From Sinanaerobacter chloroacetimidivorans (GTDB lineage: Bacteria; Bacillota; Clostridia; Peptostreptococcales; Anaerovoracaceae): a stretch of DNA of 64,000 nucleotides. Shown here in pieces: positions 37,229 to 57,862 of this stretch. The notes beneath the pieces are model-generated. The model worked only from the letters and a program-made list of their open reading frames with translations. It was not told where the DNA came from and did not search any database. The stretch is from NCBI RefSeq assembly GCF_018128545.1, contig NZ_JAGSND010000001.1, positions 110,153-174,152 on the forward strand. The letters run 5' to 3'. Numbering within the stretch: position 1 is the first letter of the stretch; each line of letters begins with the position of its first letter. A program made the position numbers and the translations under genes.

Positions 37229-37247
37229 ATTTATGGAGGAAACCACA

Positions 37248-37478
37248 ATGAAGAAATTTATGAATAATGCCCGCAACATCATCACCCTGAAAGCACTGGC
37301 TCTGCGCGAAAAGCTGTGCGAGCCGCGCGGCGAGGGCTACGTAGACACTGCCATCAAAATCCTGATCGCCGTTGTGCTGGGTGCTTTGCTGCTGGCCGGT
37401 CTGTATGCGCTGTTCAATGATACCGTACTTCCCACGCTGGTAAAGCGTGTGCAAGATATGTTTAACTATGCCGGTTGA
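37248..37478 (+). CDS. Small pilin-like membrane protein (DUF6133-like)
   Basis: A 76-aa protein: basic N-terminus (MKKFMNNARNII), the motif RGEGYVD, then one hydrophobic helix (IKILIAVVLGALLLAGLYAL) and a short tail. It resembles DUF6133 proteins of Clostridial ICEs (name from memory). The EGYVD plus helix is shared with the protein at 43172 and looks like a prepilin-type cleavage and helix. ATG 37248 has GGAGG upstream. Overlaps the prepilin peptidase gene by 11 nt, suggesting it is its substrate. Confidence 0.7.
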   Translation: MKKFMNNARNIITLKALALREKLCEPRGEGYVDTAIKILIAVVLGALLLAGLYALFNDTVLPTLVKRVQDMFNYAG

Positions 37479-37920
37479 TTCGTTGGCGGCGTTGCAGGCA
37501 GGGCTGTTTTTGCTACTGTTGTTGGCCGCTTCTGTATGCGACTTGTGCTGTCGTGAAATCCCGGACAGCCTGCAGCTTCTTATCGCAGCCACGACGTTGC
37601 TGTATTTTTCGTCCCAGAACTTGCTGGGTATTCTGGGCGCACTTCCGTATCTGGTGATTGCACTACTTTTTAGCGGCATGGATGGCATGGGCGGCGGGGA
37701 CATCAAGCTGGTGGCAGCTACCGGCATCGTGCTGGGACTACCTGCCAGTCTAACCATGTCCATCATCGGGCTGGTCAGCTTTACAATTTATGCAACTGTT
37801 CATACGGTGATCAGGCAGCGTCATGGAAAAGTCGAAACTATCGGCTTTCCTGTGGGGCCGTTTCTGGCCTTTGGGGCAGTCGTCGCCTATTTTATGAAGA
37901 TGGGAGGAATGATTCTGTGA
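37468..37920 (+). CDS. A24-type prepilin peptidase (CpaA/TadV-like)
   Basis: A 150-aa membrane aspartic protease with about four to five spans. The catalytic Asp pair is in CDLCCREIPDSL and MGGGDIKLVAATG. It lacks the N-terminal methyltransferase domain, like TadV/CpaA. It would cleave the leader of the pilins encoded here. ATG 37468 lies inside the pilin-like gene; GTG 37447 is an alternative. The chromosomal Tad operon at 6070-14493 has no such gene in view. Confidence 0.85.
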   Translation: MPVDSLAALQAGLFLLLLLAASVCDLCCREIPDSLQLLIAATTLLYFSSQNLLGILGALPYLVIALLFSGMDGMGGGDIKLVAATGIVLGLPASLTMSIIGLVSFTIYATVHTVIRQRHGKVETIGFPVGPFLAFGAVVAYFMKMGGMIL

Positions 37921-38018
37921 AAAAGAAAATCATCATCACCTTTTGCGCCGTAGTTCCTGTGGCTGCACTGGTAACTTTTTTCTACCGCCGCAGCCAGAGA
38001 ACGTACTTGTCACAGTAA
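37917..38018 (+). CDS. Very small membrane peptide (33 aa)
   Basis: GTG 37917 overlaps the stop of the peptidase (GTGA). It encodes MKKKIIITFCAVVPVAALVT plus FFYRRSQRTYLSQ: a basic start, one hydrophobic helix and a basic tail. Size and coupling suggest a real small subunit or translational-coupling ORF. No family recognised. A GC hairpin without a T run (about 38026-38052) follows. Confidence 0.5.
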   Translation: MKKKIIITFCAVVPVAALVTFFYRRSQRTYLSQ

Positions 38019-38082
38019 CCAACCGGGCGGGCTTCATGGTGAGGCTCGCCCTTCACTTTGAAAATAAGGAGGAGAAATCCAT

Positions 38083-38931
38083 ATGAGTTTTCTTAAAAAT
38101 AGAACGGTGATCGGCGTCATCTGCATCATCCTGTCTCTTGTGATCTGCTTTGCCGTGACGCCGCTGTTCAATCAGAGTATCAGCGAAAAGACAGAGATCG
38201 TTCGTGTGGTAAAACCGGTGAAGCTAGGAGAAGAAATCACCGTCGATAAGGTCAAAACCGTGGAGGTGGGCGGCTACAATCTGCCGGACGATGTGGTCAA
38301 AAACCTTGACACCACTATTGGCAAATACGCTTCCGCAGACCTTGCCGTGGGCGATTACATCATTGCCTCAAAAATCGCAGACGAACCCGCCGCCGAGAAC
38401 GCCTATCTCTACAACCTGACCGGAGAAAAGCAGGCCATTTCCGTATCGGTGAAAGCCTTTGCTAACGGCTTGTCAGGCAAGTTGCAGAGCGGCGACATCG
38501 TGTCTATCATTGCTCCCGACTATAAAAAGCAGGGTGCAACTGTCATACCTGCCGAACTTCAGTATGTGGAAGTAATCGCGGTTACCGCCACCAACGGTTA
38601 CGATGCCAACACCGGGGAGCCGTCCGAGGATGACGAAAAGGAACTGCCGGGTACCGTCACCCTGTTGGTAACGCCGGAGCAGAGCAAGGTTCTCGCTGAG
38701 CTGGAAGCGGATGGAAAGCTTCATATCTCCCTTGTGTATCGCGGTGATGCGGCCAACAGCGCCAAATTTACCGAAGCGCAGGATGCTGTGCTGACGGAGT
38801 TGTACCCGCCGATGGAGAAAACTTCAGAAGAAGCCGCTTCGGAGCCGAGTTCTGACGGTGCACAGTCAGAATCCACGGAAAGTGAAGTTTCCGACACCGC
38901 CGAAACGCCTGCTGAAAGCGAGGTGGAGTAA
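38083..38931 (+). CDS. CpaB-like pilus assembly protein (SAF domain)
   Basis: A 282-aa CpaB/RcpC-type protein. One N-terminal membrane span (VIGVICIILSLVICFAVTPL), then a SAF domain (VKPVKLGEEITVDKVKTVEV, ADLAVGDYIIASKIA), a beta-rich domain (TVTLLVTPEQSKVLAELEAD) and an acidic Ser/Glu-rich tail. CpaB proteins act in the periplasm or outside the membrane in Tad pilus assembly. ATG 38083 has AAGGAGG upstream. It is the first large gene of the ICE Tad set. Confidence 0.85.
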   Translation: MSFLKNRTVIGVICIILSLVICFAVTPLFNQSISEKTEIVRVVKPVKLGEEITVDKVKTVEVGGYNLPDDVVKNLDTTIGKYASADLAVGDYIIASKIADEPAAENAYLYNLTGEKQAISVSVKAFANGLSGKLQSGDIVSIIAPDYKKQGATVIPAELQYVEVIAVTATNGYDANTGEPSEDDEKELPGTVTLLVTPEQSKVLAELEADGKLHISLVYRGDAANSAKFTEAQDAVLTELYPPMEKTSEEAASEPSSDGAQSESTESEVSDTAETPAESEVE

Positions 38932-38934
38932 GCC

Positions 38935-39747
38935 TTGAATTTTCTGAAAAATAGCATTTTTAACCGCAAGACCAGTGAGGATGTGTCGGAGTTAGAGACG
39001 GAAAACGAGAACCAGATGCTGGCGGTCTGGGGCAGCCCCGGTTCAGGCAAAACGGTGACGGCAGTGAAGCTGGCGGCACGGCTGGCAATGCAGAAACGGG
39101 ATGTGGCGCTGCTCCTCTGCGATATGAACACTCCCATGCTTCCCTGCATCTGCCCACCGGGTGAACTTGAGGAAGAACACTCTCTCGGCAGTATTCTCGC
39201 CGCCAGCCATGTGTCGGAGTCGCTGGTGCGGCACAACTGCATTACACATAAGAAGTTCCGTCACCTGACCATCCTTGGGATGCGTAAGGGTGAGAACGAG
39301 TACACCTACCCGGTGTATGAACGAAAGCAAGCCGAGGAACTGCTGGGTTGCCTACGTTCCATTGCGCCCTATATAATCATCGACTGCGGAAGCCACATCG
39401 CCAACGATGTGCTTTCGGCCATTGCTTTGATGGAATCGGACGCGGTGCTGCGGCTGGTGAACTGTGACTTAAAAAGCATTAGCTACCTGTCCAGCCAGCT
39501 CCCGCTGTTGAAAGAAAACCAGTGGGATGCAGACAAACAGTACAAGGTGGCCAGCAATGTACGCCCTAATGAGGCCAGTGACCACATTGAACAGGTGCTG
39601 GGTAGCGTGGCCTTTCAGATTCCCCATTCCGATGAAGTGGCAGCGCAGGTGTTAGAGGGCAATCTCTTCAAGGAACTGAGCCTGAAGGATAGCCGAGGCT
39701 ATCGCAAAGCCATGGAATCCATCACAAAGGAGGTGTTCGGATGTTAG
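38935..39747 (+). CDS. MinD/TadZ-like ATPase
   Basis: A 270-aa P-loop ATPase. Walker A is VWGSPGSGKTVTAVKLA, with the catalytic Lys present, unlike the chromosomal TadZ. ALLLCDMNTPMLPC and YIIIDCGSHIANDV are the later ParA/MinD-type motifs. Position between CpaB and TadA makes it the TadZ equivalent. TTG 38935 has AGGTGGAG about 8 nt upstream. Overlaps the TadA-like gene by 7 nt. Confidence 0.8.
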   Translation: MNFLKNSIFNRKTSEDVSELETENENQMLAVWGSPGSGKTVTAVKLAARLAMQKRDVALLLCDMNTPMLPCICPPGELEEEHSLGSILAASHVSESLVRHNCITHKKFRHLTILGMRKGENEYTYPVYERKQAEELLGCLRSIAPYIIIDCGSHIANDVLSAIALMESDAVLRLVNCDLKSISYLSSQLPLLKENQWDADKQYKVASNVRPNEASDHIEQVLGSVAFQIPHSDEVAAQVLEGNLFKELSLKDSRGYRKAMESITKEVFGC

Positions 39748-41357
39748 GAGAAAAGAGGAGTAAATCTGCATTTTATGGGGGTTCTGGCTATGCTGTTCGG
39801 GAAGAAGTCATACCCACGGAAAACGCAGCATCAGATGCGGAACATCCTGAGAAATTTGCCAATCTGCGATTTGGGCCGGACTATCCTGTGGGGGATGCCG
39901 CTTGGAAAGCGCCGGAACCTGTGATGGAAGAAGCCGCTGCTGAGCCGGATACCCCAGCCATCAGGCTGGCCGTGCCGGAAAAGGTTCGGACACTGCGCAC
40001 CCATGACCTGTTCTTCGGCGCGGGAGATAAGGGTCGGGATTTTACCTCCGTGTTGCGAGAGGTACAGGCGTATCTTTCCAAGGAATACAGTGCATTGGTT
40101 ACTGGCGACGGCAGCGAGGAAGTGAAAGCACAGATTCGCCGTTTTGCAGGCAAGTATATTCAGGACCAGCGCATTGCCGTGGAGGGCATGACCACAGACC
40201 AGCTTATTGATGAGATTTACTCGGAAATGGCTGAGTTCGGTTTCCTCACCAAATACATCTACGGAGATGGCATTGAGGAAATCGACGTCAACGCATGGGA
40301 CGATGTGGAGGTGCAGTATTCTGGCGGCGTCACCAAAAAGCTCACCGAACACTTTGACAGTCCGGAACACGCCATCAACGTAGTGCGCCGTATGCTTCAT
40401 GTGTCCGGCATGGTTTTGGATGATGCCAGTCCCAGTGTGCTGGGGCATCTCTCAAAGAACATCCGTATTGCTGTGCTAAAATCGCCCATCGTGGATGAGG
40501 ATGTCGGTGTGGCGGCCTCCATACGAATCGTCAATCCCCAGAGCATGAAAAAGGAGGATTTCGTAAACGGCGGCACAGCCACCGGCGAGATGCTGGACTT
40601 TTTATCCGAGTGTATCCGCTACGGCATTTCAGTTTGCGTGGCGGGAGCCACCTCCTCCGGCAAAACCACATTGCTTGGTTGGCTGCTAACAACCATCCCC
40701 GATAGCAAGCGTATCTACAGCATCGAGAACGGATCTCGCGAGCTGGCGCTGGTGCGTAGGAATGAGACTGGTCAGGTCACCAATTCCGTTATTCATACCC
40801 TGACGAGGGATAGTGAAAACGAGCGCCAGCGGGTAGATCAGATCGCGTTGTTGGATATGGCGCTGCGTTTTAATCCCGATGTGATTGTGGTCGGCGAGAT
40901 GCGCGGTCCAGAGGCAAACGCAGCGCAGGAAGCCGCTCGCACTGGCGTGGCGGTGGTCACCACCATACACTCCATGAGCTGCGACGCCACCTATCGCCGC
41001 ATGGTATCCCTGTGCAAACGTGCCATTGATATGAGCGATGAAACGCTGATGGGCTTTGTCACAGAGGCATATCCCATTGTGGCGTTTTGCAAGCAGCTCG
41101 AAAACAAAGACCGCCGTTTGATGGAGATTATGGAATGTGAAATCATGCCTGACGGCTCAAGGCGGTTTCGCCCGCTGTTCCAATATCAGATCACGGAAAA
41201 CCGTATTGAAAATGGCAGATTTATCATCACCGGTGAGCATCGTCAGGTCAGGCCCATCTCGGACAGCCTTGCCCGTCGCCTGATGGAAAACGGAATGCCG
41301 CAGGATCTGCTAAAGAAGCTCTGTGCCACGCAGGGAAAGGAGGATAAATCCGCATGA
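39741..41357 (+). CDS. TadA/CpaF-like secretion ATPase of the ICE
   Basis: A 538-aa type II/IV secretion ATPase with a ~90-residue N-terminal extension beyond the chromosomal TadA. Core: IEEIDVNAWDDVEVQYSGG, Walker A VAGATSSGKTTLLGWLL, acidic box SIENGSREL, Walker B DVIVVGEMRGPEANAAQEAA, histidine box VVTTIHSMSCDATYRRM. It would energise assembly of the ICE's pilus. ATG 39741 overlaps the previous gene; the 3' end overlaps the next by 4 nt. Confidence 0.9.
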   Translation: MLGEKRSKSAFYGGSGYAVREEVIPTENAASDAEHPEKFANLRFGPDYPVGDAAWKAPEPVMEEAAAEPDTPAIRLAVPEKVRTLRTHDLFFGAGDKGRDFTSVLREVQAYLSKEYSALVTGDGSEEVKAQIRRFAGKYIQDQRIAVEGMTTDQLIDEIYSEMAEFGFLTKYIYGDGIEEIDVNAWDDVEVQYSGGVTKKLTEHFDSPEHAINVVRRMLHVSGMVLDDASPSVLGHLSKNIRIAVLKSPIVDEDVGVAASIRIVNPQSMKKEDFVNGGTATGEMLDFLSECIRYGISVCVAGATSSGKTTLLGWLLTTIPDSKRIYSIENGSRELALVRRNETGQVTNSVIHTLTRDSENERQRVDQIALLDMALRFNPDVIVVGEMRGPEANAAQEAARTGVAVVTTIHSMSCDATYRRMVSLCKRAIDMSDETLMGFVTEAYPIVAFCKQLENKDRRLMEIMECEIMPDGSRRFRPLFQYQITENRIENGRFIITGEHRQVRPISDSLARRLMENGMPQDLLKKLCATQGKEDKSA

Positions 41358-42283
41358 CTGCAATTCAACTGTTAGCCTGCGTCGGACTAATTGTCGGCGC
41401 ATTTTTGTTGCTGGGTCTCAAACCGGTGGAGTTTACGGACAATCTGTTCGCATTTCTCTTGCGCCCCAAAAGCAGCATTCGGGAGGACATCAAAATCTCT
41501 ACCGGACGTAAAAAGATCGACCCGTTGCGCCGGGAAATCAAGGATGCACAGGACGTGCTGGAGATGACCGGGCGTGGCAACCGCTTTTCGCTGGTCTGCG
41601 CGGCGGCCCTTGCGCTGTTCTGCATAGGTGGCTCCATCGCCATTTTGTTGGGCAATTTCTTTATGGCTCCGGTCTTGGCGGTGGGCTTTATGCTTTTACC
41701 GTTCTGGTATGTGAAGCTGACCGCCAATCACTACAAGAGGGATGTGTCCTCCGAGCTGGAAACAGCGCTGTCTGTGGTCACCACGGCGTATCTTCGCACC
41801 GAGGACATCGTAACGGCAGTGGAGGAAAACATCGCCTATCTGAACCCACCTGTATCCAAGGTGTTTCAGGATTTTCTCATGCAGATCAAACTGGTTAATC
41901 CGGATGTGGAAGCCGCACTAAAAGCCATGCGCAGCCGGATTGACAATGAGGTGTTCCGGGAGTGGTGTGATGCGCTTTGCGACTGCCAGCATGACCGGAG
42001 CCTGAAAACCACCCTCACGCCCATTGTGGCAAAGCTCTCTGATATGCGCAACGTCAATGCGGAGCTGGAGTATATGATTGCCGAGCCGCGCAAGGAATTC
42101 CTTATCATGGTAATTTTTGTGATCGGTAATATCCCACTGATGTATCTGTTAAACAAGGATTGGTACTATGTACTGATGCACACGCCGCTGGGGCAGATCA
42201 TTCTGGCCATTACAGCGGCGGTGATTTTTGTGTCGGCTGGCTTCGTGGTCAAGTTGACCCGTCCCATTGAGTATCGGAGGTGA
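41354..42283 (+). CDS. TadB-like membrane protein of the ICE
   Basis: A 309-aa T2SSF-family protein with an N-terminal span (AIQLLACVGLIVGAFLLLGL), a pair near residues 75-118, the cytoplasmic T2SSF region (LETALSVVTTAYLRTEDIVT) and two C-terminal spans. It is the likely TadB platform paired with the next protein. Start overlaps the ATPase stop (ATGA). Confidence 0.8.
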   Translation: MTAIQLLACVGLIVGAFLLLGLKPVEFTDNLFAFLLRPKSSIREDIKISTGRKKIDPLRREIKDAQDVLEMTGRGNRFSLVCAAALALFCIGGSIAILLGNFFMAPVLAVGFMLLPFWYVKLTANHYKRDVSSELETALSVVTTAYLRTEDIVTAVEENIAYLNPPVSKVFQDFLMQIKLVNPDVEAALKAMRSRIDNEVFREWCDALCDCQHDRSLKTTLTPIVAKLSDMRNVNAELEYMIAEPRKEFLIMVIFVIGNIPLMYLLNKDWYYVLMHTPLGQIILAITAAVIFVSAGFVVKLTRPIEYRR

Positions 42284-42288
42284 TCGTT

Positions 42289-43161
42289 ATGTCGGGACTG
42301 TTATTTTTATTTGGACTGTTTTTGGCTCTTGGACTATTTTTCTTGACGGCCTCCCTCCTGAAGCTGCCCACCATAGGCGCGGCAAAGGCCATGCTGGGGA
42401 CAGTAAAGCAGGACAAAAAAGTGGCCAAAACCATCGAAACCTATTTGATGACGGTGTCGGTGCGCATTGCAAAGCATATCCGCATGGACGAATACAAGCG
42501 CAGCCGCATAAGCAATATTCTGAAAGCCAGCGGCATGAACCTAACGCCGGAGGTCTATCAGGCGTATGCCTTTGTAAAGTCAGGAGCCATCCTGCTGGGC
42601 GTCATTCCCTGTGTGCTTTTGCTGCCGCTTCTGTCGCCGGTGGTTGTCATTCTGGCGGTACTTACCTATTTTAAGGAGAGTCAAAAGGCAGATGAACGCT
42701 TGAAGGCCAAGCGGGATGAAATCGAAGGCGAGCTGCCACGGTTGGTGGCCACCATTGAGCAGGAGCTAAAATCCAGCCGCAATGTTATCGGCATGCTGGA
42801 GCGGTTCAAGGAAAACGCGGGGTCAGCCCTGACCGGGGAGTTGGATGTACTGCTGGCAGATATGCGCTCATCCAACTATGAGGCGGCGCTGACACGATTC
42901 GAGGCACGGCTCAATTCGCCCATGCTCTCCGATGTGGTACGTGGGCTGATTGGCGTTCTCCGTGGGGATGATAGCGCGGTGTATTTTCAGATGCTGGCCC
43001 ATGATTTCAAGCACCTGGAGCTGCAGCGGCTCAAGGCAAAGGCGCAGAAAATTCCGCCTAAAATCCGAGTCTTTTCTTTTGCCATGCTGATGAGCTTCCT
43101 GATTACCTATCTGGCGATCATCTGCTATGTGGCGGTGACCAGCCTTGGCGGGATGTTTTAA
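42289..43161 (+). CDS. TadC-like membrane protein of the ICE
   Basis: A 290-aa T2SSF-family protein. It has an N-terminal span, a second pair (~95-130), the T2SSF pattern ELPRLVATIEQELKSSRNVI with MLERFKENAGSALTGELDVL, and a C-terminal span (MLMSFLITYLAIICYVAVTS). ATG 42289 follows CGGAGGTGATCG; GTG 42280 lies inside that ribosome-binding site. It forms the TadB/TadC pair with the previous gene. Confidence 0.8.
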   Translation: MSGLLFLFGLFLALGLFFLTASLLKLPTIGAAKAMLGTVKQDKKVAKTIETYLMTVSVRIAKHIRMDEYKRSRISNILKASGMNLTPEVYQAYAFVKSGAILLGVIPCVLLLPLLSPVVVILAVLTYFKESQKADERLKAKRDEIEGELPRLVATIEQELKSSRNVIGMLERFKENAGSALTGELDVLLADMRSSNYEAALTRFEARLNSPMLSDVVRGLIGVLRGDDSAVYFQMLAHDFKHLELQRLKAKAQKIPPKIRVFSFAMLMSFLITYLAIICYVAVTSLGGMF

Positions 43162-43171
43162 GGGGGTGGCT

Positions 43172-43579
43172 ATGATAAAGAAAATATCCACCATTTTAAA
43201 AAGCAAACGAGCCGAGGGTTATGTGGATGTGATCGTGCTGGTGCTGTGCGCCGTTATGGTGCTGGCGCTGGCGCTGCGAGTGCTGCCGGTATTCGTGCAA
43301 AAGCAGCAGCTTGACACCTTCGCCACGGAGCTGGTGCGAGAGGCCGAGGTCAGCGGGCGTATCGGTTCGGAAACGACCCGCCGCGCAGCCATTCTCAGGG
43401 AGAAAACCGGCATCGCCCCCAGCATCTCATGGTCGGCCAGCGGCAAAATTCAGCTCAATGAAGAAGTTACCGTCACTCTGACGTTGCGTACCAACATTGG
43501 TCTGTTCGGGGATTTCGGTTCTTTCCCCATTACCCTGCGGGCGCAAGCCAGCGGAAAATCAGAAGTCTATTGGAAATGA
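43172..43579 (+). CDS. Pseudopilin-like protein with EGYVD motif (DUF4320-like)
   Basis: A 135-aa protein: basic N-terminus (MIKKISTILKSK), RAEGYVDVIVLVLCAVMVLA, then an extracellular part with mostly beta structure. The EGYVD plus hydrophobic helix matches the small protein at 37248. The DUF4320 name is from memory of ICE annotations. ATG 43172 has AAGGGGG upstream. It follows tadC-like by 10 nt, the place of TadE/TadF genes in Tad loci. Confidence 0.72.
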   Translation: MIKKISTILKSKRAEGYVDVIVLVLCAVMVLALALRVLPVFVQKQQLDTFATELVREAEVSGRIGSETTRRAAILREKTGIAPSISWSASGKIQLNEEVTVTLTLRTNIGLFGDFGSFPITLRAQASGKSEVYWK

Positions 43580-43586
43580 GGTGAGG

Positions 43587-44153
43587 ATGCGATTGTATGA
43601 AAAAATCAAAGTAATCCTGAAGAATCAGCGCGGTACATCCTTCCCACTGGTGATTGGCGTCACGCTGGCGCTGGTCATTATGCTGTGTGGCGTCAGCGAG
43701 TATTTTCGGCTGAATATCATTGTGGTAGGCGTCAAAGAAGCGGTGGAGGATGCTATCATTTCTACCGTCAACGACAACTACGCCGGGGTATATCACGGTG
43801 TGCGGGAAGGCTATTCGGGCGGCTATCTGCCGGATGGCGATACAGGCTGGGAGGTGGCCGTCAGCGAGGGCGACATTTATACCTACCTCGATGGCAGCCT
43901 TGGAACAGAGCAATCCGGTGGCAGGCACGTTAAATTTGCCGGGGACTCCGGCAATTCGATGGAGTTTGCCATTGATAGCCTGTCGGTCACCATCCGCAAT
44001 GCGCCGCTTGCCCCCTCCGACCCAAGCAATGCACAGCGGTTTGAAGCAGATGCGGTCATTCGGCTGGAGGTGCCGGTGCGCTTTGGCGGCAGGTTGCTCC
44101 CGTCCATACACATCACACTGAAGGTGCAGGCGGGATATATCGAGGTATTCTAA
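43587..44153 (+). CDS. TadE/G-like surface protein of the ICE
   Basis: A 188-aa protein with N-terminus ILKNQRGTSFPLVIGVTLAL, a basic leader with Gly followed by a hydrophobic helix as in TadE-type pseudopilins. The rest is polar and beta-rich (SLSVTIRNAPLAPSDPSNAQ) and ends RFGGRLLPSIHITLKVQAGY. ATG 43587 has AGGTGAGG upstream. Third pilin-like protein in this set. No named family is certain. Confidence 0.65.
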   Translation: MRLYEKIKVILKNQRGTSFPLVIGVTLALVIMLCGVSEYFRLNIIVVGVKEAVEDAIISTVNDNYAGVYHGVREGYSGGYLPDGDTGWEVAVSEGDIYTYLDGSLGTEQSGGRHVKFAGDSGNSMEFAIDSLSVTIRNAPLAPSDPSNAQRFEADAVIRLEVPVRFGGRLLPSIHITLKVQAGYIEVF

Positions 44154-44256
44154 ATAAACTTCGGGAAGAATTCGGGAATTTGCTGGACTTCCCAAAATGG
44201 ATAGGGTATGTTGTGTCATAACGAGGCATCAACCATCCCATGAAGGAGGCATCACT

Positions 44257-44811
44257 ATGAAAATGACAGAGAAAACGAAAAAATATCTGGCCATCGGCGG
44301 CGGTGCGGTAATCTGCATCGCGCTCATCGCGGCCATCAGCCTGCAATTTGGCAAGGCTCCCGCAGGGGAAGATGTACTGCCAGGGGCAAACTCCTCCGCT
44401 ACCGATATTGTCATCGACCCCAGCAGCTTATCCACTGAAACAGATGCGGAAGCAACCAAGCCGGTCATTCAGCCCAACACCAACGCGGCTGACAGCACTG
44501 GGCAGGCGACAGATTCCCGACCAGCCCAGACCGATCAAAGCGAACAGAGCATTCAGCCGGAGGTCACCAAGCCTGCCGAGCCGGAGGAATCTGTGAAAAC
44601 CGATTCCACGCAAAAGCCGGATGGGACAAAGGTGGATACCCCGCCCACTGCGGTGGATCATGACACCTATACACCGCCTGCGGATACGGGAACGCAGAAC
44701 AGCGGCGGTGGTCTACCTGGTTTTGACAATGTACCGGATGCTGGTGCAAATCAAGTAATTCAGGCCAATGATATGTACGAAAATGGAAACAAAATCGGCA
44801 GCATGGACTAA
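44257..44811 (+). CDS. Membrane-anchored low-complexity protein (DUF6550-like)
   Basis: A 184-aa protein. Residues 1-30 have a cytoplasmic start and one span (YLAIGGGAVICIALIAAISL); the rest is a Pro/Thr/Asp/Glu-rich extracellular stretch with no obvious fold. It resembles DUF6550 proteins (name from memory) of ICE Tad sets. ATG 44257 has GAAGGAGG upstream. Possibly a spacer or pilus-associated wall protein; inference only. Confidence 0.6.
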   Translation: MKMTEKTKKYLAIGGGAVICIALIAAISLQFGKAPAGEDVLPGANSSATDIVIDPSSLSTETDAEATKPVIQPNTNAADSTGQATDSRPAQTDQSEQSIQPEVTKPAEPEESVKTDSTQKPDGTKVDTPPTAVDHDTYTPPADTGTQNSGGGLPGFDNVPDAGANQVIQANDMYENGNKIGSMD

Positions 44812-44833
44812 TCAATTCAATCAGTAATGAAAG

Positions 44834-44860
44834 GGCATCGTGGACACACGGTGCTTTTTT
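44834..44860 (+). terminator. Terminator before the large surface protein gene
   Basis: GCATCGTG, GACA, CACGGTGC then TTTTTT. Confidence 0.7.
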
Positions 44861-44877
44861 CATGGAAAGGAGTCTGC

Positions 44878-46575: not shown

Positions 46576-46590
46576 CAACAGAAAACGAAC

Positions 46591-46629: not shown

Positions 46630-46658
46630 GCAAATCTCACAACGAAGGGAGAACCTCT

Positions 46659-49514: not shown

Positions 49515-49526
49515 GGAGGAAAAACG

Positions 49527-50087: not shown

Positions 50088-50101
50088 AGAAGGAGAAAAA
50101 G

Positions 50102-50530
50102 ATGACTACTTTTGAAAATGAGTTGCGCAAGCTCTTTGATCATGACGTGGTGTTTGTGAATGCCCGTTTTACCGGAAACACCTGCTACGGCAGGCTGAAT
50201 GAAGAGGTGCGAGTCAAAGCACGTTTTGTTACCTGCGACTATGGTGACCATTACGAAGCGCTTAAGGTGACGCTGCTCAACCGACGAGAGGGAGAAATCA
50301 ACAGCGTTCTACTGCGCTTTCGAGATCTGTGGGGCATGAAAAAGGTGAGCAATCCCAACTTTCAACAGGGGGTATCGCCTCATTTATGGGTGTGCGACGG
50401 TAAGGTTGAATGGTATGTGTATCAGCCGAATGAAGCTGACCGCCAGCAACTCAAGGCCGCCGTGCAGACCTATTTGGATGTGTTTCAGGAGCCGGTGCAG
50501 GGCCAGCAGATGGGGCAGAAAATGTGCTGA
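50102..50530 (+). CDS. ICE hypothetical protein
   Basis: A 142-aa unrecognised protein (MTTFENELRKLFDHDVVFVN at the start; QPVQGQQMGQ-like Gln-rich tail). Probably a beta-rich soluble protein. RBS GAAGGAG, 14 nt after the previous stop. Part of the conjugation operon. Confidence 0.55.
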   Translation: MTTFENELRKLFDHDVVFVNARFTGNTCYGRLNEEVRVKARFVTCDYGDHYEALKVTLLNRREGEINSVLLRFRDLWGMKKVSNPNFQQGVSPHLWVCDGKVEWYVYQPNEADRQQLKAAVQTYLDVFQEPVQGQQMGQKMC

Positions 50531-50575
50531 TATAGCGCAGGCCAGCACTCTGGTCGGAAAGGAGTGAGAAATTAA

Positions 50576-51478
50576 GTGTTTATATGGGACTTCGTCGCCG
50601 AAACCGTGCTGGGGCAGATCATTGATTGGATCTACGGCCAGATCGTCGGGTTTCTCGGCGATTTTTTTATGCAGATGGGAAATATGGGGGCAGATCTGTT
50701 CGAGCTGAACTGGGTGCAGTCCATTGTTCTCTTTTTCAGTTATCTGGCGTGGGCGCTCTACGCTGTCGGTCTTGTGGTGGCGGTGTTTGAGTGCGGCATT
50801 GAGTACCAGAACGGGCGAGGTAGCGTGAAGGAAACCTCCCTCAATGCCGTCAAGGGCTTTATGGCTGTGGGGTTGTTTACCACGGTGCCAGTGGAGCTGT
50901 ACAAGCTCTGTGTAACTCTGCAGGGCGGCTTTACGGCGGGAATCACCGGACTGGGTGAGGATTTCGGAACAGTGGCTTCCGGAATTATTACTTCATTACA
51001 GGATGCGGGAACATGGGAACAAGCAGCTAACGCCGGTGTGCTGGGCGGCCTGAATACTATCACCAGCCCAATCTTGATGATTTTTATACTGATAATGATG
51101 GGCTATGCCATCATTAAAGTGTTCTTTGCCAACTTGAAGCGGGGCGGTATCCTTCTGATCCAGATCGCGGTTGGCAGTCTGTATATGTTCAGCATTCCAC
51201 GCGGGTATATCGACGGTTTTGTGAGCTGGAGCAAGCAGGTCATCGGTTTGTGCCTGACTGCGTTTTTACAGGCGACGATCCTGATCGCCGGACTTATGGT
51301 ATTCAAAGACCACGCATTACTAGGGCTTGGTCTAATGCTGTCAGCAGGCGAAATCCCACGCATCGCCGGACAGTTTGGTCTGGACACCGGCACTCGTGCT
51401 AACGTGATGGGTGCGGTCTACGCAGCACAGGGAGCAGTGAATCTGACCCGCACCGTTGTGCAGACCGTCGCAAAATAA
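50576..51478 (+). CDS. VirB6/TrbL-like membrane protein (CD1107-like)
   Basis: A 300-aa polytopic protein with about six to seven spans (WVQSIVLFFSYLAWALYAVG; SPILMIFILIMMGYAIIKVF; GLCLTAFLQATILIAGLMVF) and an N-terminal amphipathic region. Size and topology fit the VirB6-type channel core of Gram-positive ICEs. GTG 50576 follows AAAGGAG; the gap is a little long. Confidence 0.8.
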   Translation: MFIWDFVAETVLGQIIDWIYGQIVGFLGDFFMQMGNMGADLFELNWVQSIVLFFSYLAWALYAVGLVVAVFECGIEYQNGRGSVKETSLNAVKGFMAVGLFTTVPVELYKLCVTLQGGFTAGITGLGEDFGTVASGIITSLQDAGTWEQAANAGVLGGLNTITSPILMIFILIMMGYAIIKVFFANLKRGGILLIQIAVGSLYMFSIPRGYIDGFVSWSKQVIGLCLTAFLQATILIAGLMVFKDHALLGLGLMLSAGEIPRIAGQFGLDTGTRANVMGAVYAAQGAVNLTRTVVQTVAK

Positions 51479-51494
51479 GGAGGCTGATCAGCAG

Positions 51495-51872
51495 ATGAAG
51501 GAAAACAAACTAGTTTACATCACATCCCCTTATGCCGGGGACATTGAATCAAACGTAGCCTTTGCTAAAACCGCCTGCCGCTACGCCGTGGAGCAGGGAT
51601 GCACCCCGGTGGCAGTTCACTTGCTCTATCCGCAGATACTGAACGATGCTGTTCCCGTAGAACGCGAAGCCGGTATCCAGATGGGGCTGCAGGTGCTGGA
51701 AGTCTGTGATGAATTGTGGCTGTGCGGTGATCGGATATCTCACGGGATGCAGGTAGAACTGGACGCTGCAGAATGGCAGGGAATCCCAGTATGCCGTGTT
51801 CTGGAAATCCCGCAGGAAGCGCCGGAACCGATAGAATCCCACATGGAACGATCACCCCAATTGGCTATGTAA
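51495..51872 (+). CDS. DUF4406/nucleoside deoxyribosyltransferase-like protein
   Basis: A 125-aa protein. KLVYITSPYAGDIESNVAFA, TPVAVHLLYPQ and VCDELWLCGDRISHGMQVEL match the deoxyribosyltransferase-like fold of DUF4406. It could bind a nucleotide. ATG 51495 follows AAGGAGG. It stands inside the conjugation operon; its role there is unknown. Confidence 0.75.
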   Translation: MKENKLVYITSPYAGDIESNVAFAKTACRYAVEQGCTPVAVHLLYPQILNDAVPVEREAGIQMGLQVLEVCDELWLCGDRISHGMQVELDAAEWQGIPVCRVLEIPQEAPEPIESHMERSPQLAM

Positions 51873-51988
51873 CATTGGCACATTTGCTTCACTTGAGCCA
51901 AAATCCTTGTTGGATATCGTCATAGCTATTCCCTCACATTGTCGATATACTTGGCTTGCAAAAGAATCAAAGGAAGGAGTCAAACCAC

Positions 51989-52306
51989 ATGGAAAATCGC
52001 AAAAATCTCTGTGCCATGATCACTGCCGACCTCCACGCCAGAGTGCGTGAGGAACAGGAAAAAATGGAGCTGAAACTAAATGAGTATGTCGAAATGATCA
52101 TCAAAGAACACTTTGAGATGGGAGGAAAAACAATGGATGGCAAAACAAGGACGCTGGCATTTCAGGTATCGGAGGAACTGTTCGGGCGCATCAAGGCCCA
52201 TCTAACTAAGACGGGTATGAGCCAAAAGGACTTCGTCATCGGCCTGATTGAGAAGGCTCTGGTAAGCAAACCACCGGAGTCAATCGAAGCTGGCAGCAAC
52301 GAATAA
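51989..52306 (+). CDS. Small DNA-binding-like protein of the ICE
   Basis: A 105-aa protein with two similar segments (CAMITADLHARVREEQEKME; LAFQVSEELFGRIKAHLTKT) that look like ribbon-helix-helix-type units. If so it is a tandem RHH regulator. ATG 51989 has AAGGAAGGAG upstream. A hairpin (CCGCTGGAGC...GGCGG, about 52321-52346) follows. Confidence 0.6.
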   Translation: MENRKNLCAMITADLHARVREEQEKMELKLNEYVEMIIKEHFEMGGKTMDGKTRTLAFQVSEELFGRIKAHLTKTGMSQKDFVIGLIEKALVSKPPESIEAGSNE

Positions 52307-52370
52307 TCGCATCGCATGAACCGCTGGAGCCGCAGAGCTTCGGCGGTTTTTCTCTTGGAGGTGAGCAATT

Positions 52371-52634
52371 TTGTATATTTACCCTGACAACTTGAAGTCC
52401 AAAGCTACGTTGTGGCTTTGGCAGCTCCGTGATATTGGCATCATCGGAATCTGCGCCGTGGTGTCTATCTTGGCACTGACGCAGGCTGGTTTTTTTCCAC
52501 CACTGGTGCTAACCGGCGTATTCGCCTTTCTATCGATCCGCTTTGAGGACACCAGCATTTTGGATTTTATCCGATATGCCTGCGCGTTTTTGTTTATCCA
52601 CCAGCAGCTTTATGAATGGAGGTATACCGAGTGA
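52371..52634 (+). CDS. PrgI-family protein (VirB3-like)
   Basis: An 87-aa protein with two close membrane spans (IGIIGICAVVSILALTQAGF; PPLVLTGVFAFLSI) and YPDNLKSKATLWLWQLRDIG at the start. PrgI/VirB3-type proteins contact VirB4 at the membrane. The TTG start has GGAGGTG upstream; the stop overlaps the VirB4 N-terminal gene (GTGA). Confidence 0.8.
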   Translation: MYIYPDNLKSKATLWLWQLRDIGIIGICAVVSILALTQAGFFPPLVLTGVFAFLSIRFEDTSILDFIRYACAFLFIHQQLYEWRYTE

Positions 52635-53224
52635 GTAAAAAAGCAGAGAAGAAAGAGGCCCGACAGCGGGCATCCACACGCCAGCTTATTGGGGTGAAGG
52701 CCGTCACCGATTACAGCCTTGTATCCTATGTCCATGGCGAGCTGGTGTATTTTATCATCAAACCCTCCAACATTTCCGTTCTGTCGCAGGCCAGCGTTGG
52801 GGCAAAAATCTACGCCCTGATGACGGTGTTGAAGGGTGTGGCCGAGATTGAAATGCTTTGCCTTAACAGCCGCGAGAGCTTCGAGGACAACAAGCGTTTT
52901 CTTCGCGCCCGCATGGAGAAGGAGAACAATCCAGTGGTGCACAGATTGCTGGAAAAAGACCAGACCCATCTCGACCGAATACAGGTGCAGATGGCCACTG
53001 CTCGCGAATTTCTCATCATCATTCGCCTGAAGGATGAGAAAGAATCGGAGGTATTTCCATACCTTGCCCGCATCGAAAAGTCCCTCAAAGAGCAAGGCTT
53101 TTCCGTAAAGCGAGCTGACCATGAGGACATCAAGCGTATTCTTGCGGTTTATTACGAGCAGAACGTGACTACAGAGCGCTTTGAGGATTTCGACGGGGAG
53201 CGTTGGATTATTCCAGAGGACTGA
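52631..53224 (+). CDS. VirB4 N-terminal domain protein
   Basis: A 197-aa protein corresponding to the N-terminal domain of VirB4/TraE (YFIIKPSNISVLSQASVGAK; IQVQMATAREFLIIIRLKDE), encoded separately from the ATPase part as in several Gram-positive ICEs. GTG 52631 overlaps the PrgI stop and has TGGAGG upstream. The next gene carries the remaining VirB4 domain. Confidence 0.78.
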   Translation: MSKKAEKKEARQRASTRQLIGVKAVTDYSLVSYVHGELVYFIIKPSNISVLSQASVGAKIYALMTVLKGVAEIEMLCLNSRESFEDNKRFLRARMEKENNPVVHRLLEKDQTHLDRIQVQMATAREFLIIIRLKDEKESEVFPYLARIEKSLKEQGFSVKRADHEDIKRILAVYYEQNVTTERFEDFDGERWIIPED

Positions 53225-53238
53225 AAGGAGGCAACCAT

Positions 53239-54710
53239 TTGAAACAAACAAAAGCTGCCCCTGCGGCGGCAAAGGAAGATGTGCGCATTCAGGAGTTTCT
53301 GGATATGATTGCGCCATCCATTGTCAAATTTGAAACCGACTATTTTATCTGCGGTAACACCTATCGCTGTGTGTGGGCGCTGCGGGAGTACCCCACTGCC
53401 ACAGACGAGCAGGCCATTCTGTCGCACCTCGGCGAAAAGGACGGCGTGACCCTGCGCATCTACACCCGCCATGTGACCCCGGTGGAAGAAAAGAAAATCA
53501 TCAGCAACGCCGCCAACAAAAACCGCATGGACAGGAGCAACACCAACGATTTACAGCAAACGGTGTTGGCCGAAAGCAATTTACAGGACGTGACCACCAT
53601 CGTGGCGCAAATGCACCGCAATCGTGAGCCGCTGCTCCATGCGGCGGTTTATCTGGAGCTGTGCGCCCACGACCTCGATCAGCTCAAGCTGTTGCAGACC
53701 GAGGTGCTGACCGAGCTAATCCGCTCCAAGCTGAATGTTGACCGGCTCATGCTCCGCCAGCAGCAGGGCTTTCAGTGCGTGATGCCCACTGGCTGGAATC
53801 TGTTTCGCGATCAGTTCGAGCGTGTGCTACCAGCCAGCAGCGTGGCCAATCTCTATCCCTTCAACTATTCCGGCAAGACCGATCCGCAGGGGTTCTATGT
53901 GGGGCGTGATAAATTCGGTAGCAATGTGCTGGTAGACTTTAACCGCCGTGCCGATGACAAAACCAACGCAAACATCCTGATCCTTGGCAACTCCGGTCAG
54001 GGCAAGAGCTATCTGCTCAAGCTGATTCTGACTAATCTGCGGGAATCTGGGATGCGGATTACCGCCCTCGATCCCGAAATGGAGTACGAGGATTTGACCA
54101 ACAACCTCGGTGGCTGTTTTATCGACCTTATGTCTGGCGAGTATATCATCAACTTTTTGGAACCTAAAACATGGGATGACAGTGGCAGTCCGGAGGACTT
54201 AGACGCGCCGCAGACCTTCCGCATTAGATCTCGCCTGTCCCAGCACATTAGCTTTCTGAAAGATTTTTTTCGCACCTACAAGGACTTTACCGATCGGGAA
54301 ATCGACGTCATCGAAATCATCCTACAAAAGCTTTATGCAAAGTGGAATCTGTCAGATAAGACCGATTTCACCCAGCTTGGGCCGACCGATTACCCGATTC
54401 CGTCCGATCTGTATGCACTGCTTGAGGCCGAATACAAAGGTTTTGATGAGAACAAGCGGCAGCTTTACACCGCCGAAATGCTCCAGAGCATCCTGCTGGG
54501 CCTCAATTCTATGTGTGTGGGTGCGGAGAGTAAATTCTTCAACGGCTACACCAATATTACTGATTCCAGTTTTGTCACCTTCGGGGTGAAGGGCTTGCTG
54601 CAGGCCAGCCGGAACCTGAAAAATGCGCTGCTGTTCAACGTGCTTTCCTTTATGAGCGACGAGTTGTTGACCGAGGGCAACACCGCTGCCAGCTTGGATG
54701 AATTCTATCT
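53239..54710 (+). CDS. virB4: VirB4 conjugation ATPase, 5' exon
   Basis: First 490 codons and two bases of a 609-aa VirB4-type ATPase interrupted by group II intron 2. It holds the middle domain (VTPVEEKKIISNAANKNRMD), Walker A (ILILGNSGQGKSYLLKLI, ~residues 247-260) and Walker B (AASLDEFYL, D487 E488). The exon ends right after that motif. VirB4 energises pilus biogenesis and transfer. TTG 53239 has GAAAGGAGG upstream. Without splicing translation would stop at 54738. Confidence 0.88.
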
Positions 54711-57504
54711 GTGTGAAGCGACACGTTGTCGCCAATAACCTTGCATAGCGGGGAGACCTGCCACAAGGGAAAAACGACGGGAAACCGCAAGGTTTTCTAA
54801 CTAATATTTCGAGGAGTGGAATGACGGAGTAACGTCCCGAAACGCTCCCCCTGAGACTGCGTTGGAAGAAACCGTGGACAAACGCGGGGACTGACACAGC
54901 ACGCCGAAGTCGGCTGAACACACTCGCTGTATCGACAGTGCCAGCAACACATCGTTACGGCAAAAACGAACCAGAGGTGGTCGTGAGTGATAGGCCGGGG
55001 GTCTACAAGATATCTATGGCAAGAATGTGCAGGATTGCACTGACGAACATCCGAATGTACGGGTCTAAAAGAGTGAACGGCTAACAGCCGTTGCCGTCGG
55101 ATGGCGGCGTGTGTGAGGATTAGTAAAATTACAAGGTTATGAAACTCCTTAATCTGTTATAGGCAGGTTCAAGCACACAGGCTTAAAGGATGCGCCTAAG
55201 GGTATGTATGAACAGATAGAAATATTGGAACGTGGAAAAGCTGGAGCGTGGAGCATTTGTCTGCAAAGAAGCGCTGGCAAGGAAATCGGCATTCAACGCT
55301 GTATAACTTGCCTTTATCCAGCCAAAAGCGCAGCCATAGTACCAATGAAGCGGCGACAATAAGCCGCGGAGGGATGGGCTGTAGTCGGGAAATGCAAACA
55401 TTAGCAAGGAAACACGCAGCATTCAAAGGTTCGAGTAGGACTAAGAAAGGCTGAATTCCATCTGCTCTTTACAGGGCAAGGAGGATGCCGACTTTGACGA
55501 CTACAAAGAAACCCAAAAGGCAGAAACTGCGCAATGCGGAATACTACGGGCTTCAAGCGTTGCAGGACAGGCTGTACGCCGACAGCAAGGATGGAAAGCA
55601 TTTCAAAAATCTGGTGTCCATCATTACTTCGGAGGAAAATATTCAGCTTGCATACCGCAATATTAAGAAGAATTCCGGTAGCAAAACCGCAGGCACAGAC
55701 GGTAAAACCATTCAAGACTTAGAAAAATGGCAACCGCAGACCGTCATAAATTATGTGAGAAAACGCCTCCACTTCTACATCCCGCAAACGGTACGGCGAA
55801 CAGAAATTCCAAAACCAAACGGCAAAATGCGGCCACTGGGCATTCCCACCCTCGGAGACCGGCTGATACAGCAATGTATTTTGCAGGTCTTAGAGCCGAT
55901 ATGCGAGGCAAAATTTCATGAAAAGAGTTTTGGCTTTCGTCCCAACAGGAGCACGGAGCACGCCATAGCGCAGGTCTATAAATATATGCAGGTCGATAAT
56001 CTGTCCTACGTTGTAGATATTGACATCAAAGGATTTTTCGACAATGTCAATCATGGAAAACTGCTTAAGCAAATGTGGACGCTTGGTATTCGCGATAAAA
56101 AGCTGCTGTGCATCATCTCCGCTATGTTAAAGGCGGAGATCAAAGATGTTGGTATCCCTGAAAAGGGCACGCCGCAGGGCGGCATATTAAGTCCATTGCT
56201 CTCAAATATTGTGTTGAACGAGCTGGACTGGTGGATCGCCAGCCAATGGGAAGAAATGCCGCCCAAGCACAACAAGCCTTTCATCCGCAAAGACAACGGC
56301 AAAGTGGATAAGGGACCAGTATTTTTAGCCTACCGGGAGCGAAGCAATCTAAAGGAATGCCACCTCGTGCGCTATGCAGATGATTTCAAAATCTTTTGCA
56401 GAAAACGCAGCGACGCGGACAAGATTTTTGAAGCCACAAAACTGTGGCTATGGGATAGGCTTCACTTGGAAATCAGTGAGGAAAAATCCAGTGTCACCAA
56501 CCTGAAACGCCACTATTCCGAATATCTTGGCTTTCAGATACGTCTGCACAAAAAGGGTAAGACCAAGGGTGGCAAGCCCAGATACACCGTAAAATCTCAC
56601 ATTACCGAAAAAGCGGATAAGCGCATAAAAGACAGTCTGCACAAGCAAATCAGGAGCGTGCAAAAACCCATTGGTAATCGCAGTGGACACGCTTCGGTCG
56701 AGTGCTACAACGCCTATGTCATTGGCGTTCACAATTACTATGAAATAGCGACCCACGTAGCACAGGACTTCTATAAAATCAGCCATTCTGCCCACAAGAG
56801 CCTAAGAGCACGATTAAAGAAACGCATGAAAAGAAGCGGCCAGTATATCTTGCCATATATCCAAGAAAAGTATGGACACAGTCAGCAAATACGCTATGTG
56901 TATGATACGGCGCTCGCCCCGATTGGTGCAATCAAGCACCGCCCTCCCAGTATGCTGCGGGTGGCGGTCAACAAATATACACCCCAGGGCAGAGCTGGTA
57001 TACACAGTAGATTGGAGACGGTCAACATGGCCGTCCTGACATTTTTAATGCGCAACCCAGTTCGAGATAGAACCATTGAGTTTAACGACAACCGCCTGTC
57101 CCTTTACTGCGGACAGTGCGGAAAATGTGCAATCAGTGGAGAAAATCTTGAAATTGGGCATCTGCACTGCCATCATATTATCCCTTTGCAAAAAGGCGGT
57201 ACAGACAAATATGCAAACCTCGTGTTTTTGGCGGATAGGGTGCACGTACTCCTACACGCCACGAGAGAAAAAACGCTGAACGCCCTGCTTGCCGAACTGA
57301 ATTTGGATAAAAAGCAACTGGCTAAACTCGATAAATTCCGCCGGTTGGCGGAAATCCCCGAAATTATCTAAACGTTTCTTTTAGTTGTAAGCTGTGTAAC
57401 TCCAACAAACATTTCCCGATGGAACGCCGTGTGATGGGAAACTATCATGCACGGTGTGGGACGGGGGAAAAGATGGAGATAACATCAAAATCTTACCTAT
57501 CGTC
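54711..57504 (+). mobile_element. Group II intron 2 (in virB4)
   Basis: About 2794 nt beginning GTGTGAAGCGACACG, a classical GUGYG start. Domains I-III cover the ~770 nt before the RT gene. Domain V is seen at about 57424-57458 (AACGCCGTGTGATGGGAAAC, then TATCATGCACGGTG). Excision at 54710/57505 joins CT to ATTCCTC and restores VirB4 as FYLFLSNLTAVEYV. The 3' end (..GTC|AT) is set by frame restoration and may be off by a few nt. The intron differs from intron 1 in ribozyme and protein sequence. Confidence 0.85.
55485..57371 (+). CDS. ltrA: Group II intron reverse transcriptase/maturase with HNH domain (intron 2)
   Basis: A 628-aa RT/maturase. RT blocks: PKPNGKMRPLGIPTLGDRLI, KSFGFRPNRSTEHAIAQVYK, VVDIDIKGFFDNVNHGKLLK, EKGTPQGGILSPLLSNIVLN and HLVRYADDFKIFC. 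A C-terminal HNH endonuclease is visible (CGQCGKCAISGENLEIGHLH, CHHIIPLQKGG, DKYANLVFL). ATG 55485 touches the ribosome-binding site GGAGG, so TTG 55494 (MTTTKKP) is an alternative start. Confidence 0.95.
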   Translation: MPTLTTTKKPKRQKLRNAEYYGLQALQDRLYADSKDGKHFKNLVSIITSEENIQLAYRNIKKNSGSKTAGTDGKTIQDLEKWQPQTVINYVRKRLHFYIPQTVRRTEIPKPNGKMRPLGIPTLGDRLIQQCILQVLEPICEAKFHEKSFGFRPNRSTEHAIAQVYKYMQVDNLSYVVDIDIKGFFDNVNHGKLLKQMWTLGIRDKKLLCIISAMLKAEIKDVGIPEKGTPQGGILSPLLSNIVLNELDWWIASQWEEMPPKHNKPFIRKDNGKVDKGPVFLAYRERSNLKECHLVRYADDFKIFCRKRSDADKIFEATKLWLWDRLHLEISEEKSSVTNLKRHYSEYLGFQIRLHKKGKTKGGKPRYTVKSHITEKADKRIKDSLHKQIRSVQKPIGNRSGHASVECYNAYVIGVHNYYEIATHVAQDFYKISHSAHKSLRARLKKRMKRSGQYILPYIQEKYGHSQQIRYVYDTALAPIGAIKHRPPSMLRVAVNKYTPQGRAGIHSRLETVNMAVLTFLMRNPVRDRTIEFNDNRLSLYCGQCGKCAISGENLEIGHLHCHHIIPLQKGGTDKYANLVFLADRVHVLLHATREKTLNALLAELNLDKKQLAKLDKFRRLAEIPEII

Positions 57505-57862
57505 ATTCCTCTCCAATTTGACCGCCGTGGAATATGTCCGCAACTTTATGAAGCGTGTGCGCAAGAAGGATTCGGCGGTCATCATCGCAAGTCAGAACCT
57601 TGAAGATTTTAATCTGGACGGCGTGAAGGAGTACACCAAGCCGTTGTTTTCCATCCCTACGCATCAGTTCCTGTTTAATGCAGGCAGCATCGATGCCCGG
57701 TTTTATACCGACACTCTCCAGCTGGAGGAATCGGAGTACAATCTGATTCGTTATCCCCAGCGTGGGGTGTGCCTCTACAAATGTGGCAATGAACGTTATA
57801 ACTTGATGGTCAATGCTCCGGAGTATAAGGCGAAGCTGTTCGGTAACGCTGGCGGGCGTTAA
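57505..57862 (+). CDS. virB4: VirB4 conjugation ATPase, 3' exon
   Basis: Last 119 codons of VirB4 after intron 2. Joined with 53239-54710 the frame is exact (610 codons with stop) and reads LFLSNLTAVEYVRNFMKRVR, IIASQNLEDFNLDGVKEYTK, IRYPQRGVCLYKCGNERYN, as expected for the C-terminal ATPase region. A terminator follows. Confidence 0.88.

Follow-up and report, generated by a model that had tools for sequence, protein, structure and literature searches.

The closest described relative of the locus analysed here is LGI1, an island of about 50 kb in Listeria monocytogenes 08-5578 that carries cpa/tad genes with virB4, virD4, virB6, an NlpC/P60 gene, a Sel1-repeat protein gene, serine recombinase genes and a primase gene in an operon-like order, and for which its authors pointed to relatives in clostridia and suggested that it probably makes a pilus-like appendage (PMC2834635; this article and the others cited below are drawn on through parts of their text). 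A review likewise records the cpa/tad genes of LGI1 together with vir genes (PMC10300472), and a 2019 survey described Tad as the filament type most often found on plasmids, with many new Tad systems in Clostridia among others (PMC6668835). We have analysed a stretch of 64,000 nucleotides, hereafter the window, from Sinanaerobacter chloroacetimidivorans (G000:C1:110153-174152; positions are given in window numbering, and labels beginning with L or G denote the loci and genomes compared). It contains the left part (32025..64000) of what is predicted from its gene content to be an LGI1-like integrative and conjugative element (ICE). Within the transfer genes of this element lies a block, 37233-46575, that is probably a Tad (type IVc) pilus set, whose product would grip recipient cells before a VirB-type channel moves DNA. 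That tad and vir genes occur on one island is already known from LGI1, and the preliminary description of this DNA, which knew of no named system of this kind, had overlooked that island, published in 2010 with cpa/tad and virB4/virD4/virB6 (PMC2834635).

The likeness to LGI1, as drawn from its published description, extends to cpa/tad genes lying in one orientation with virB4, virD4 and virB6, and to an NlpC/P60 enzyme, Sel1 repeats (here on the MobL relaxase), a primase-like Toprim protein near virD4, and a serine recombinase. LGI1 carries emrE as cargo and is bordered by 16-bp imperfect inverted repeats; a scan for short exact repeats yielded no convincing borders of the window element. A difference from LGI1 is that the window copy is interrupted by two group II introns. 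The parts expected of a Gram-positive conjugative ICE, namely relaxase, coupling protein, VirB4, VirB6, wall hydrolase and integrase, are all present. Transfer elements that also encode a type IV mating pilus are represented by IncI/R64, TP114 and PAPI-1 (PMC9045228, PMC12857230), and the PilV adhesin of TP114 determines recipient preference (PMC9045228); however, these systems are Gram-negative, use type IVb pili and are built from other genes, whereas the window element combines Tad/type IVc genes with a Gram-positive-type system. The Pfam matches of the window set are Tad-type and not type IVb pil genes (PilS, PilV); the element may work like R64 and PAPI-1 without being a member of their group. 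Cutibacterium acnes plasmids provide a Gram-positive case in which a tad locus stands beside VirB4 and TcpC-like genes, a link that their authors left open (PMC5696575); those plasmids, likened here by description, are actinobacterial and linear and encode a TraB-like FtsK protein. PrgB of pCF10 is a sortase-anchored surface protein that serves mating contact in Gram-positive bacteria (PMC12857230). It is a wall-anchored protein and not a Tad-made pilus, and we propose that the module carried by the Tad-less sister elements described below corresponds to it.

On the + strand, to which all genes given below belong, the element reads YodL, SpoVG, the Tad set (37233-44153), DUF6550, a 582-amino-acid (582-aa) protein, a VirB2-like DUF3852 protein, TrbL_5, a PrgI-like protein, VirB4 and NlpC/P60. 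The Tad set opens with a DUF6133 Flp-like prepilin (37233..37478; Pfam 8.2e-33; motif RGEGYVD) and an A24 prepilin peptidase of the TadV/CpaA type (37447..37920; Pfam Peptidase_A24 3.9e-11), followed by CpaB/RcpC (38083..38931; Pfam RcpC 1.3e-17; NCBIfam TIGR03177 at 71.4 bits, cutoff 71), a CpaE/TadZ-like MinD-type ATPase assigned by Pfam AAA_31 (2.1e-6) and position (38935..39747), and the TadA/CpaF ATPase (39741..41357; Pfam T2SSE 2.8e-23). Two membrane platform proteins follow, one TadB-like (41354..42283; position and conserved order, no family match above cutoff) and one TadC-like (42280..43161; conserved order, Pfam T2SSF 0.0059, below cutoff), and then a DUF4320 TadE-like pseudopilin (43145..43579; Pfam 2.5e-38; motif RAEGYVD), a TadF-like pseudopilin (43497..44153; conserved order and motif RGTSFPL, no Pfam match), the real start of which is probably further downstream than 43497, and a DUF6550 protein with a single N-terminal hydrophobic stretch (44197..44811; Pfam 1.8e-17). 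The Tad/type IVc complement of TadA, TadB, TadC, CpaB, CpaE/TadZ, prepilin peptidase and TadE/TadF is thus present, the identities of TadB, TadC, TadF and PrgI resting mainly on order, size and synteny where family models are weak or silent. Pfam matches and synteny agree with the genes, strand and order given in the preliminary description, the gene list of which lacked the 582-aa protein (44827..46575).

Recurrent motifs are seen in the small proteins of the set. A G/A/S-(E/Q/D)-G-x-x-D motif precedes the hydrophobic stretch of DUF6133 in 18/19 loci and recurs in DUF4320 in at least 58/63 loci, as counted from the 12 commonest strings, and a G-x-(S/G)-FPL motif is found in the TadF-like protein in at least 43/65 loci. 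The cleavage motif of Flp pilins has Glu at +5. DUF6133 has Asp in that place in the same 18/19 loci, a motif variant for which "Tad-like pilin" is the safer name.

The same arrangement recurs well beyond the window. Four more contigs of the same genome show the Tad-to-TrbL order, each ending before PrgI/VirB4, with identities to the window copy of ~59-77% across the genes from CpaB to DUF4320 and in TrbL, whereas the A24, TadF and pilin genes reach 40-59%; the TadA motifs GATSSGKT and VGEMRG do not differ among the five copies. In an alignment scan with TrbL_5 using one genome per species, the best 80 of 199 relatives were kept, and a core Tad gene (TadA, TadB, TadC or DUF4320) was found in 53 of the 66 loci with at least 5 kb upstream, any gene of the Tad set in 58. 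When at least 6 kb downstream of TrbL was also available, a core Tad gene together with PrgI/VirB4 was present in 46/56 loci. The adjacency proposed in the preliminary description is therefore conserved, and the possibility raised there, that the two sets are rarely adjacent elsewhere, fails. Records with the Tad set include Clostridium clostridioforme, Oscillibacter valericigenes, Desulfosporosinus, a Sedimentibacter sp., Tissierella, Fusibacter and Anaerotignum. Plasmids carry it as well: pTPHSE1 runs from DUF6133 to DUF4320 and on to VirD4, a VirB6-type protein, VirB4, a C40 peptidase and a MobP2 relaxase, and in the stretches examined pCd5_2 has VirD4 and a VirB6-type protein after the Tad set, and CP141730 has DUF3852, TrbL, VirB4 and an M23 peptidase after it.

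When 291 genomes of the class were scanned in reverse with TadA, 43 matches at E<=1e-80 were obtained, five of them in the genome of the window itself. The 13 other matches of at least 770 bits had TrbL downstream in 11 cases and a contig end in two. Among five matches of 480-660 bits, a divergent VirB4 lay downstream in 3/3 testable cases (~9 kb in G112, ~11 kb in G242, ~30 kb in G345), and among 20 matches of 270-366 bits, VirB4 was found 18-21 kb downstream in three (G186, G290, G144:C16); at 20-30 kb from the Tad genes, single cases of VirB4 could be chance neighbours. Ten other loci of this last group were viewed with wider flanks, and VirD4 and/or VirB4 appeared ~25-32 kb downstream in G207, G150 and G274, neither within ~35 kb downstream in G122, and a contig end at 11-24 kb in the remaining six; the rest of the group was too close to a contig end (6) or left out (1). 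These ten distant loci, in which no VirB4 was seen within the narrower stretches, had been considered as a control for Tad genes without a type IV secretion system (T4SS), a use that was dropped because three showed VirD4/VirB4 and six ran into contig ends.

The Tad genes also appear to have been inherited with the transfer genes. Distances among TrbL proteins were correlated with those among Tad-set proteins (Mantel r 0.79 for TadC, n=57; 0.89 for CpaB, n=31; 0.67 for DUF4320, n=63; 0.60 for TadA, n=43; 0.81 for the 582-aa protein, n=68), the p of 0.001 for each of the five being the floor of 1000 shuffles and host descent being a possible contributor. The corresponding values against TrbL for genes of the transfer apparatus were comparable, at 0.87 for PrgI, 0.85 for the VirB4 N-terminal part and 0.75 for NlpC.

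Sister elements with no Tad genes within reach have sortase-type surface genes instead. We classified 117 distinct TrbL_5 loci, identical TrbL stretches having been removed (19/119 and 3/20 loci), and scored as Tad any locus in which one of eight set genes was seen: 76 loci were Tad, 21 sortase-type (surface proteins or sortases), one neither and 19 unassignable, and none had both. Twenty loci, counted before that removal, came from a targeted draw in one family with Tad-less elements, from which two partial matches (G966, G972:C11) were left out; because the draw was aimed at a family known for such elements, 21/117 is no natural frequency. A core gene was present in 66 of the 76 Tad loci and all eight set genes in 36, and no sortase was detected in Tad-scored loci at E 1e-5. 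With the same margins over the 98 assigned loci, ~16 would be expected by chance to have both modules versus 0 observed, in a naive estimate that ignores kinship. The unassignable loci comprise 13 with less than 5 kb upstream (including L197), five with neither module within reach, namely G070, L081 and L112 (other genes upstream), L185 (VirB2 9.5 kb upstream) and L101 (unrelated genes), and L241, which was moved by hand from Tad on account of divergent Tad genes (TadA 35%) ~11-13 kb upstream. A divergent Tad set does lie upstream of the TrbL_5 element at L241:16723-19849, perhaps a case of one Tad set replacing another. Also by hand, L073, which has sortases at the contig edge and no LPXTG protein in view, was placed among the sortase-type loci, and L097 was scored as neither.

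In these sortase-type loci a sortase is present in 15/21, and a surface (LPXTG) protein ends less than 2 kb upstream of TrbL in 15/21, or lies downstream of TrbL in L035 and L240. The proteins themselves are diverse, including a GramPos_pilinD1/SpaA protein with LPETG beside two sortases (L074), a 1842-aa SpaA-repeat protein ending LPQTGF and encoded with a sortase between SpoVG and VirB2 (L191), a 2275-aa SpaA-repeat protein directly before VirB2 (L113), and a protein of 1536 aa in which an antigen I/II domain is recognised, together with a sortase (L034). On the best TrbL tree the Tad/sortase label changes at least five times, several branches being long and some placements unsure; in the first tree, of 100 loci, removal of five long rows lowered the number of changes from 3 to 2. 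Three independent pairs on the starred branches of the TrbL tree all agreed with one another, Tad and sortase being opposed in each.

Taken together, the shared slot, the co-inheritance and the swap are most simply fitted by Tad pili and sortase-type proteins sharing the job of recipient contact. The idea in the preliminary description that a Tad pilus makes contact while VirB parts move DNA is now the best-supported reading, because the sister systems have sortase-type surface proteins in place of Tad genes; its interpretation as a whole is partly supported. In the proposed mechanism, the A24 peptidase would cleave the DUF6133 and DUF4320 prepilins, TadA with TadB and TadC would build and perhaps retract the fibre, CpaB and CpaE would position it, and the 582-aa protein would act as an adhesin at or on it. 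The wall would be opened by the NlpC/P60 enzyme, and the MobL relaxase would nick the strand that TrbL, PrgI and VirB4, together with VirD4, carry out of the cell. On this reading the pilus, which would work like those of R64 and PAPI-1, lies outside the DNA channel as a contact module that can be exchanged.

The 582-aa secreted protein is a concrete candidate for this adhesin and is present in 76/76 Tad-labelled loci. An N-terminal hydrophobic helix is predicted, and an AlphaFold model was obtained with a pLDDT of 80.4 and a pTM of 0.51; two C-terminal stretches match Ig-like domains weakly, and the N-terminal domain is unassigned. Database relatives numbered 3759 at E<=0.001 among 7990 candidates scored, one of which, labelled L. 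monocytogenes (P0071), is 75% identical across 90% of the protein. The C-terminal half is 22-29% identical to proteins of 808-1082 aa encoded by ten Tad loci from the more distant group, and different large proteins occupy the site after the pseudopilins in L166, L161 and CP141730. This site therefore looks like a variable adhesin position.

Several observations weigh against a mating pilus that is exchanged for surface proteins. In other settings, Tad pili are used for attachment to surfaces and for taking up DNA. Of the 76 loci labelled Tad, ten owe the label solely to the 582-aa protein, accompanied by TadF or not, in the stretch seen, and modules beyond the stretches examined would escape the count. 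On the sortase side, six of the 21 loci show no sortase in the stretch, and L073 has sortases and no LPXTG protein; moreover, in 15 large surface proteins the sequence stops one residue after LPXTG (LPRTGY, LPRTGH, LPQTGF), with neither the usual hydrophobic tail nor the charged residues, so that their anchoring is uncertain (L113, L188, L191, L234-L237, L239 and L242-L248; a sortase gene lies in the stretch of most of them). The three independent pairs give p = 0.25, fewer than six pairs being unable to reach significance, and descent clusters the labels. In the 10 kb seen of L097/L098 neither module appears (L097 is the locus counted as neither), and in another T4SS lineage, L167/L204 (G290:C47), a distant Tad set and a sortase share one contig with NlpC/P60, VirD4 and VirB4. 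Finally, terminator-like hairpins lie at 38025-38051 and 52318-52349, inside the gene run that the preliminary description took for one operon; such sites are commoner in the region than expected, with 29 versus 19.4 in shuffles (standard deviation 4.4).

Two other roles for the Tad set are each unlikely. In the first, the fibre would be a wall-crossing pseudopilus forming part of the DNA conduit, as proposed in one PAPI-1 model, a chimeric type IV pilus/VirB4/VirD4 machine (PMC12857230); the conservation of the Tad set and its place inside the transfer genes would suit such a role. However, sister elements with the same TrbL/PrgI/VirB4 genes and no Tad set, known from their genes alone, have a surface protein, which is an unlikely substitute for a conduit; since the Tad set can be traded for such a protein, it is itself unlikely to conduct DNA. 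In the second, of similarly low probability, the set would be host-colonisation cargo merely travelling with the element. Other bacteria use Tad pili to adhere and to colonise (PMC5696575), and a colonisation adhesin could be swapped for a sortase-type protein in the same way. Cargo of ICEs usually varies. The Tad set, unlike such cargo, is constant in place and order and diverges in correlation with the transfer genes, and where sister elements lack it they have a sortase-type surface protein.

It is far less probable that TadA replaces the VirB11 ATPase, with the remaining Tad genes as accessories. LGI1 has been reported to have virB11 (PMC10300472, PMC2834635), and the window TadA does score against both a VirB11 model and the NCBIfam model "TadA family conjugal transfer-associated ATPase", far below cutoff in each case (123 bits versus a cutoff of 373 for the latter). 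Pilin, peptidase, TadB, TadC, CpaB and pseudopilins nevertheless recur alongside TadA, and no TadA was seen in the examined stretches of the sortase-type loci. An assembly artefact or chance neighbourhood, for which the 63 contigs and 8.1% contamination of this genome might speak, is refuted by recurrence of the same arrangement in complete genomes such as those of Oscillibacter valericigenes Sjm18-20 and Anaerotignum sp. MB30-C6 and of Tad with transfer genes on complete plasmids.

The VirB genes named in the preliminary description (VirB2-like, VirB6-like, PrgI and VirB4) are all there, although the VirB2-like and VirB4 genes are not intact, each being split by a group II intron. Exon 1 of the VirB2-like DUF3852 gene spans about 46655..46886 (tblastn, 68-70% to uninterrupted homologues) and exon 2, with an approximate start, 49404..49511 (83-92%); two homologues were found unbroken. 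The homologue in L012 matches Pfam TrbC/VirB2 at 2.1e-4, below cutoff. Intron 1 (46887..49407, ends approximate) contains a reverse transcriptase gene at 47487-49304 (Pfam RVT_1, maturase) and Rfam RF00029 at 49311-49407. TrbL_5, the VirB6-like channel protein, follows at 50576..51478 (Pfam 6.4e-151), and a small PrgI/VirB3-like membrane protein at 52371..52634 was assigned from its location ahead of VirB4 together with its size and hydrophobic stretches, with no Pfam or NCBIfam match. The VirB4 N-terminal part has an open reading frame (ORF) of its own at 52616..53224, assigned by tblastn synteny and separate in L190 too. Exon 1 of the VirB4 ATPase (DUF87, AAA_10) runs over 53203..54711, its end being approximate and its ORF continuing to 54738; intron 2 occupies 54712..57505 (ends approximate), with Rfam RF02004 at 54796-55009, a reverse transcriptase at 55485-57371 (RVT_1) and RF00029 at 57422-57506; and exon 2 lies at about 57506..57862 (64-96% to relatives in full-length matches). 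The VirB4 matches of most relatives listed abut precisely at the exon edges of the window, the relatives reading through. A working transfer system would need splicing of both introns, since each splits a transfer gene. Insertions seem to favour the gap between VirB2 and TrbL, where introns and unrelated genes of up to ~10 kb occur, for example, in L081, L112, L012 and the window (46900-50530).

After VirB4, the window carries amidoligase, gamma-glutamyl cyclotransferase-like and YpsA/DprA-like genes (57912-60779), an amidoligase following VirB4 in many relatives too, and then the VirB1-like NlpC/P60 wall hydrolase gene (60825..61844; Pfam 1.5e-25). Beyond the window lie genes for a MobL relaxase with Sel1 repeats, a Toprim protein, VirD4 (T4SS-DNA_transf 7.8e-43) and serine recombinase-like proteins; among the recombinase-like ORFs at 81.4-86.3 kb, one was confirmed by Pfam, and its neighbours resemble one another at their starts only. 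The element appears to begin right after a RumA-type methyltransferase gene (30855-32024), left of which the chromosome carries queuosine and RuvABC genes, and to continue to ~86.3-86.5 kb. Its G+C content is 48.8% from ~32.1 to ~86.3 kb versus 39.1% in the left flank and 38.0% in the right flank. The SpoVG-like gene (36884..37228; Pfam SpoVG 1.6e-24) forms the left border of the Tad slot, and SpoVG stands ahead of the Tad set in those relatives whose stretch extends that far. On another contig of the same genome (C23), SpoVG and the A24 gene that opens onto the usual set are separated by a second, very divergent Tad-like set with a weak T2SSE match and a Big_4 protein (L015:8983-16778). Near a further contig end (L183; G000:C11:78000-83572), YodL, a DUF6133 pilin and SpoVG occur together, with no recognisable Tad set within reach.

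Conservation of the Tad-T4SS pairing across clostridial elements, and its exchange for sortase-type genes, were not found described in the literature searched, which covers few subscription papers. Gram-positive bacteria are said to lack conjugative pili, with Patescibacteria allowed as a possible exception in PMC12857230, and a word search of that text did not find "Tad". We consider it somewhat more probable than otherwise that clostridial conjugation depends on grip modules that can be exchanged: a large family of Gram-positive T4SSs would have a true Tad mating pilus, and in sister systems fibres made by sortases or giant surface proteins would repeatedly have taken over the same slot. A mating pilus of this sort, supposedly absent from Gram-positive bacteria, would overturn the view that they have none; the presence of the Tad set among the transfer genes of many clostridial elements makes such statements testable. 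A mating pilus could also explain how these Clostridia reach recipient cells in a liquid environment, and the swap between Tad and sortase-type modules, if true, would amount to a natural experiment on recipient choice.

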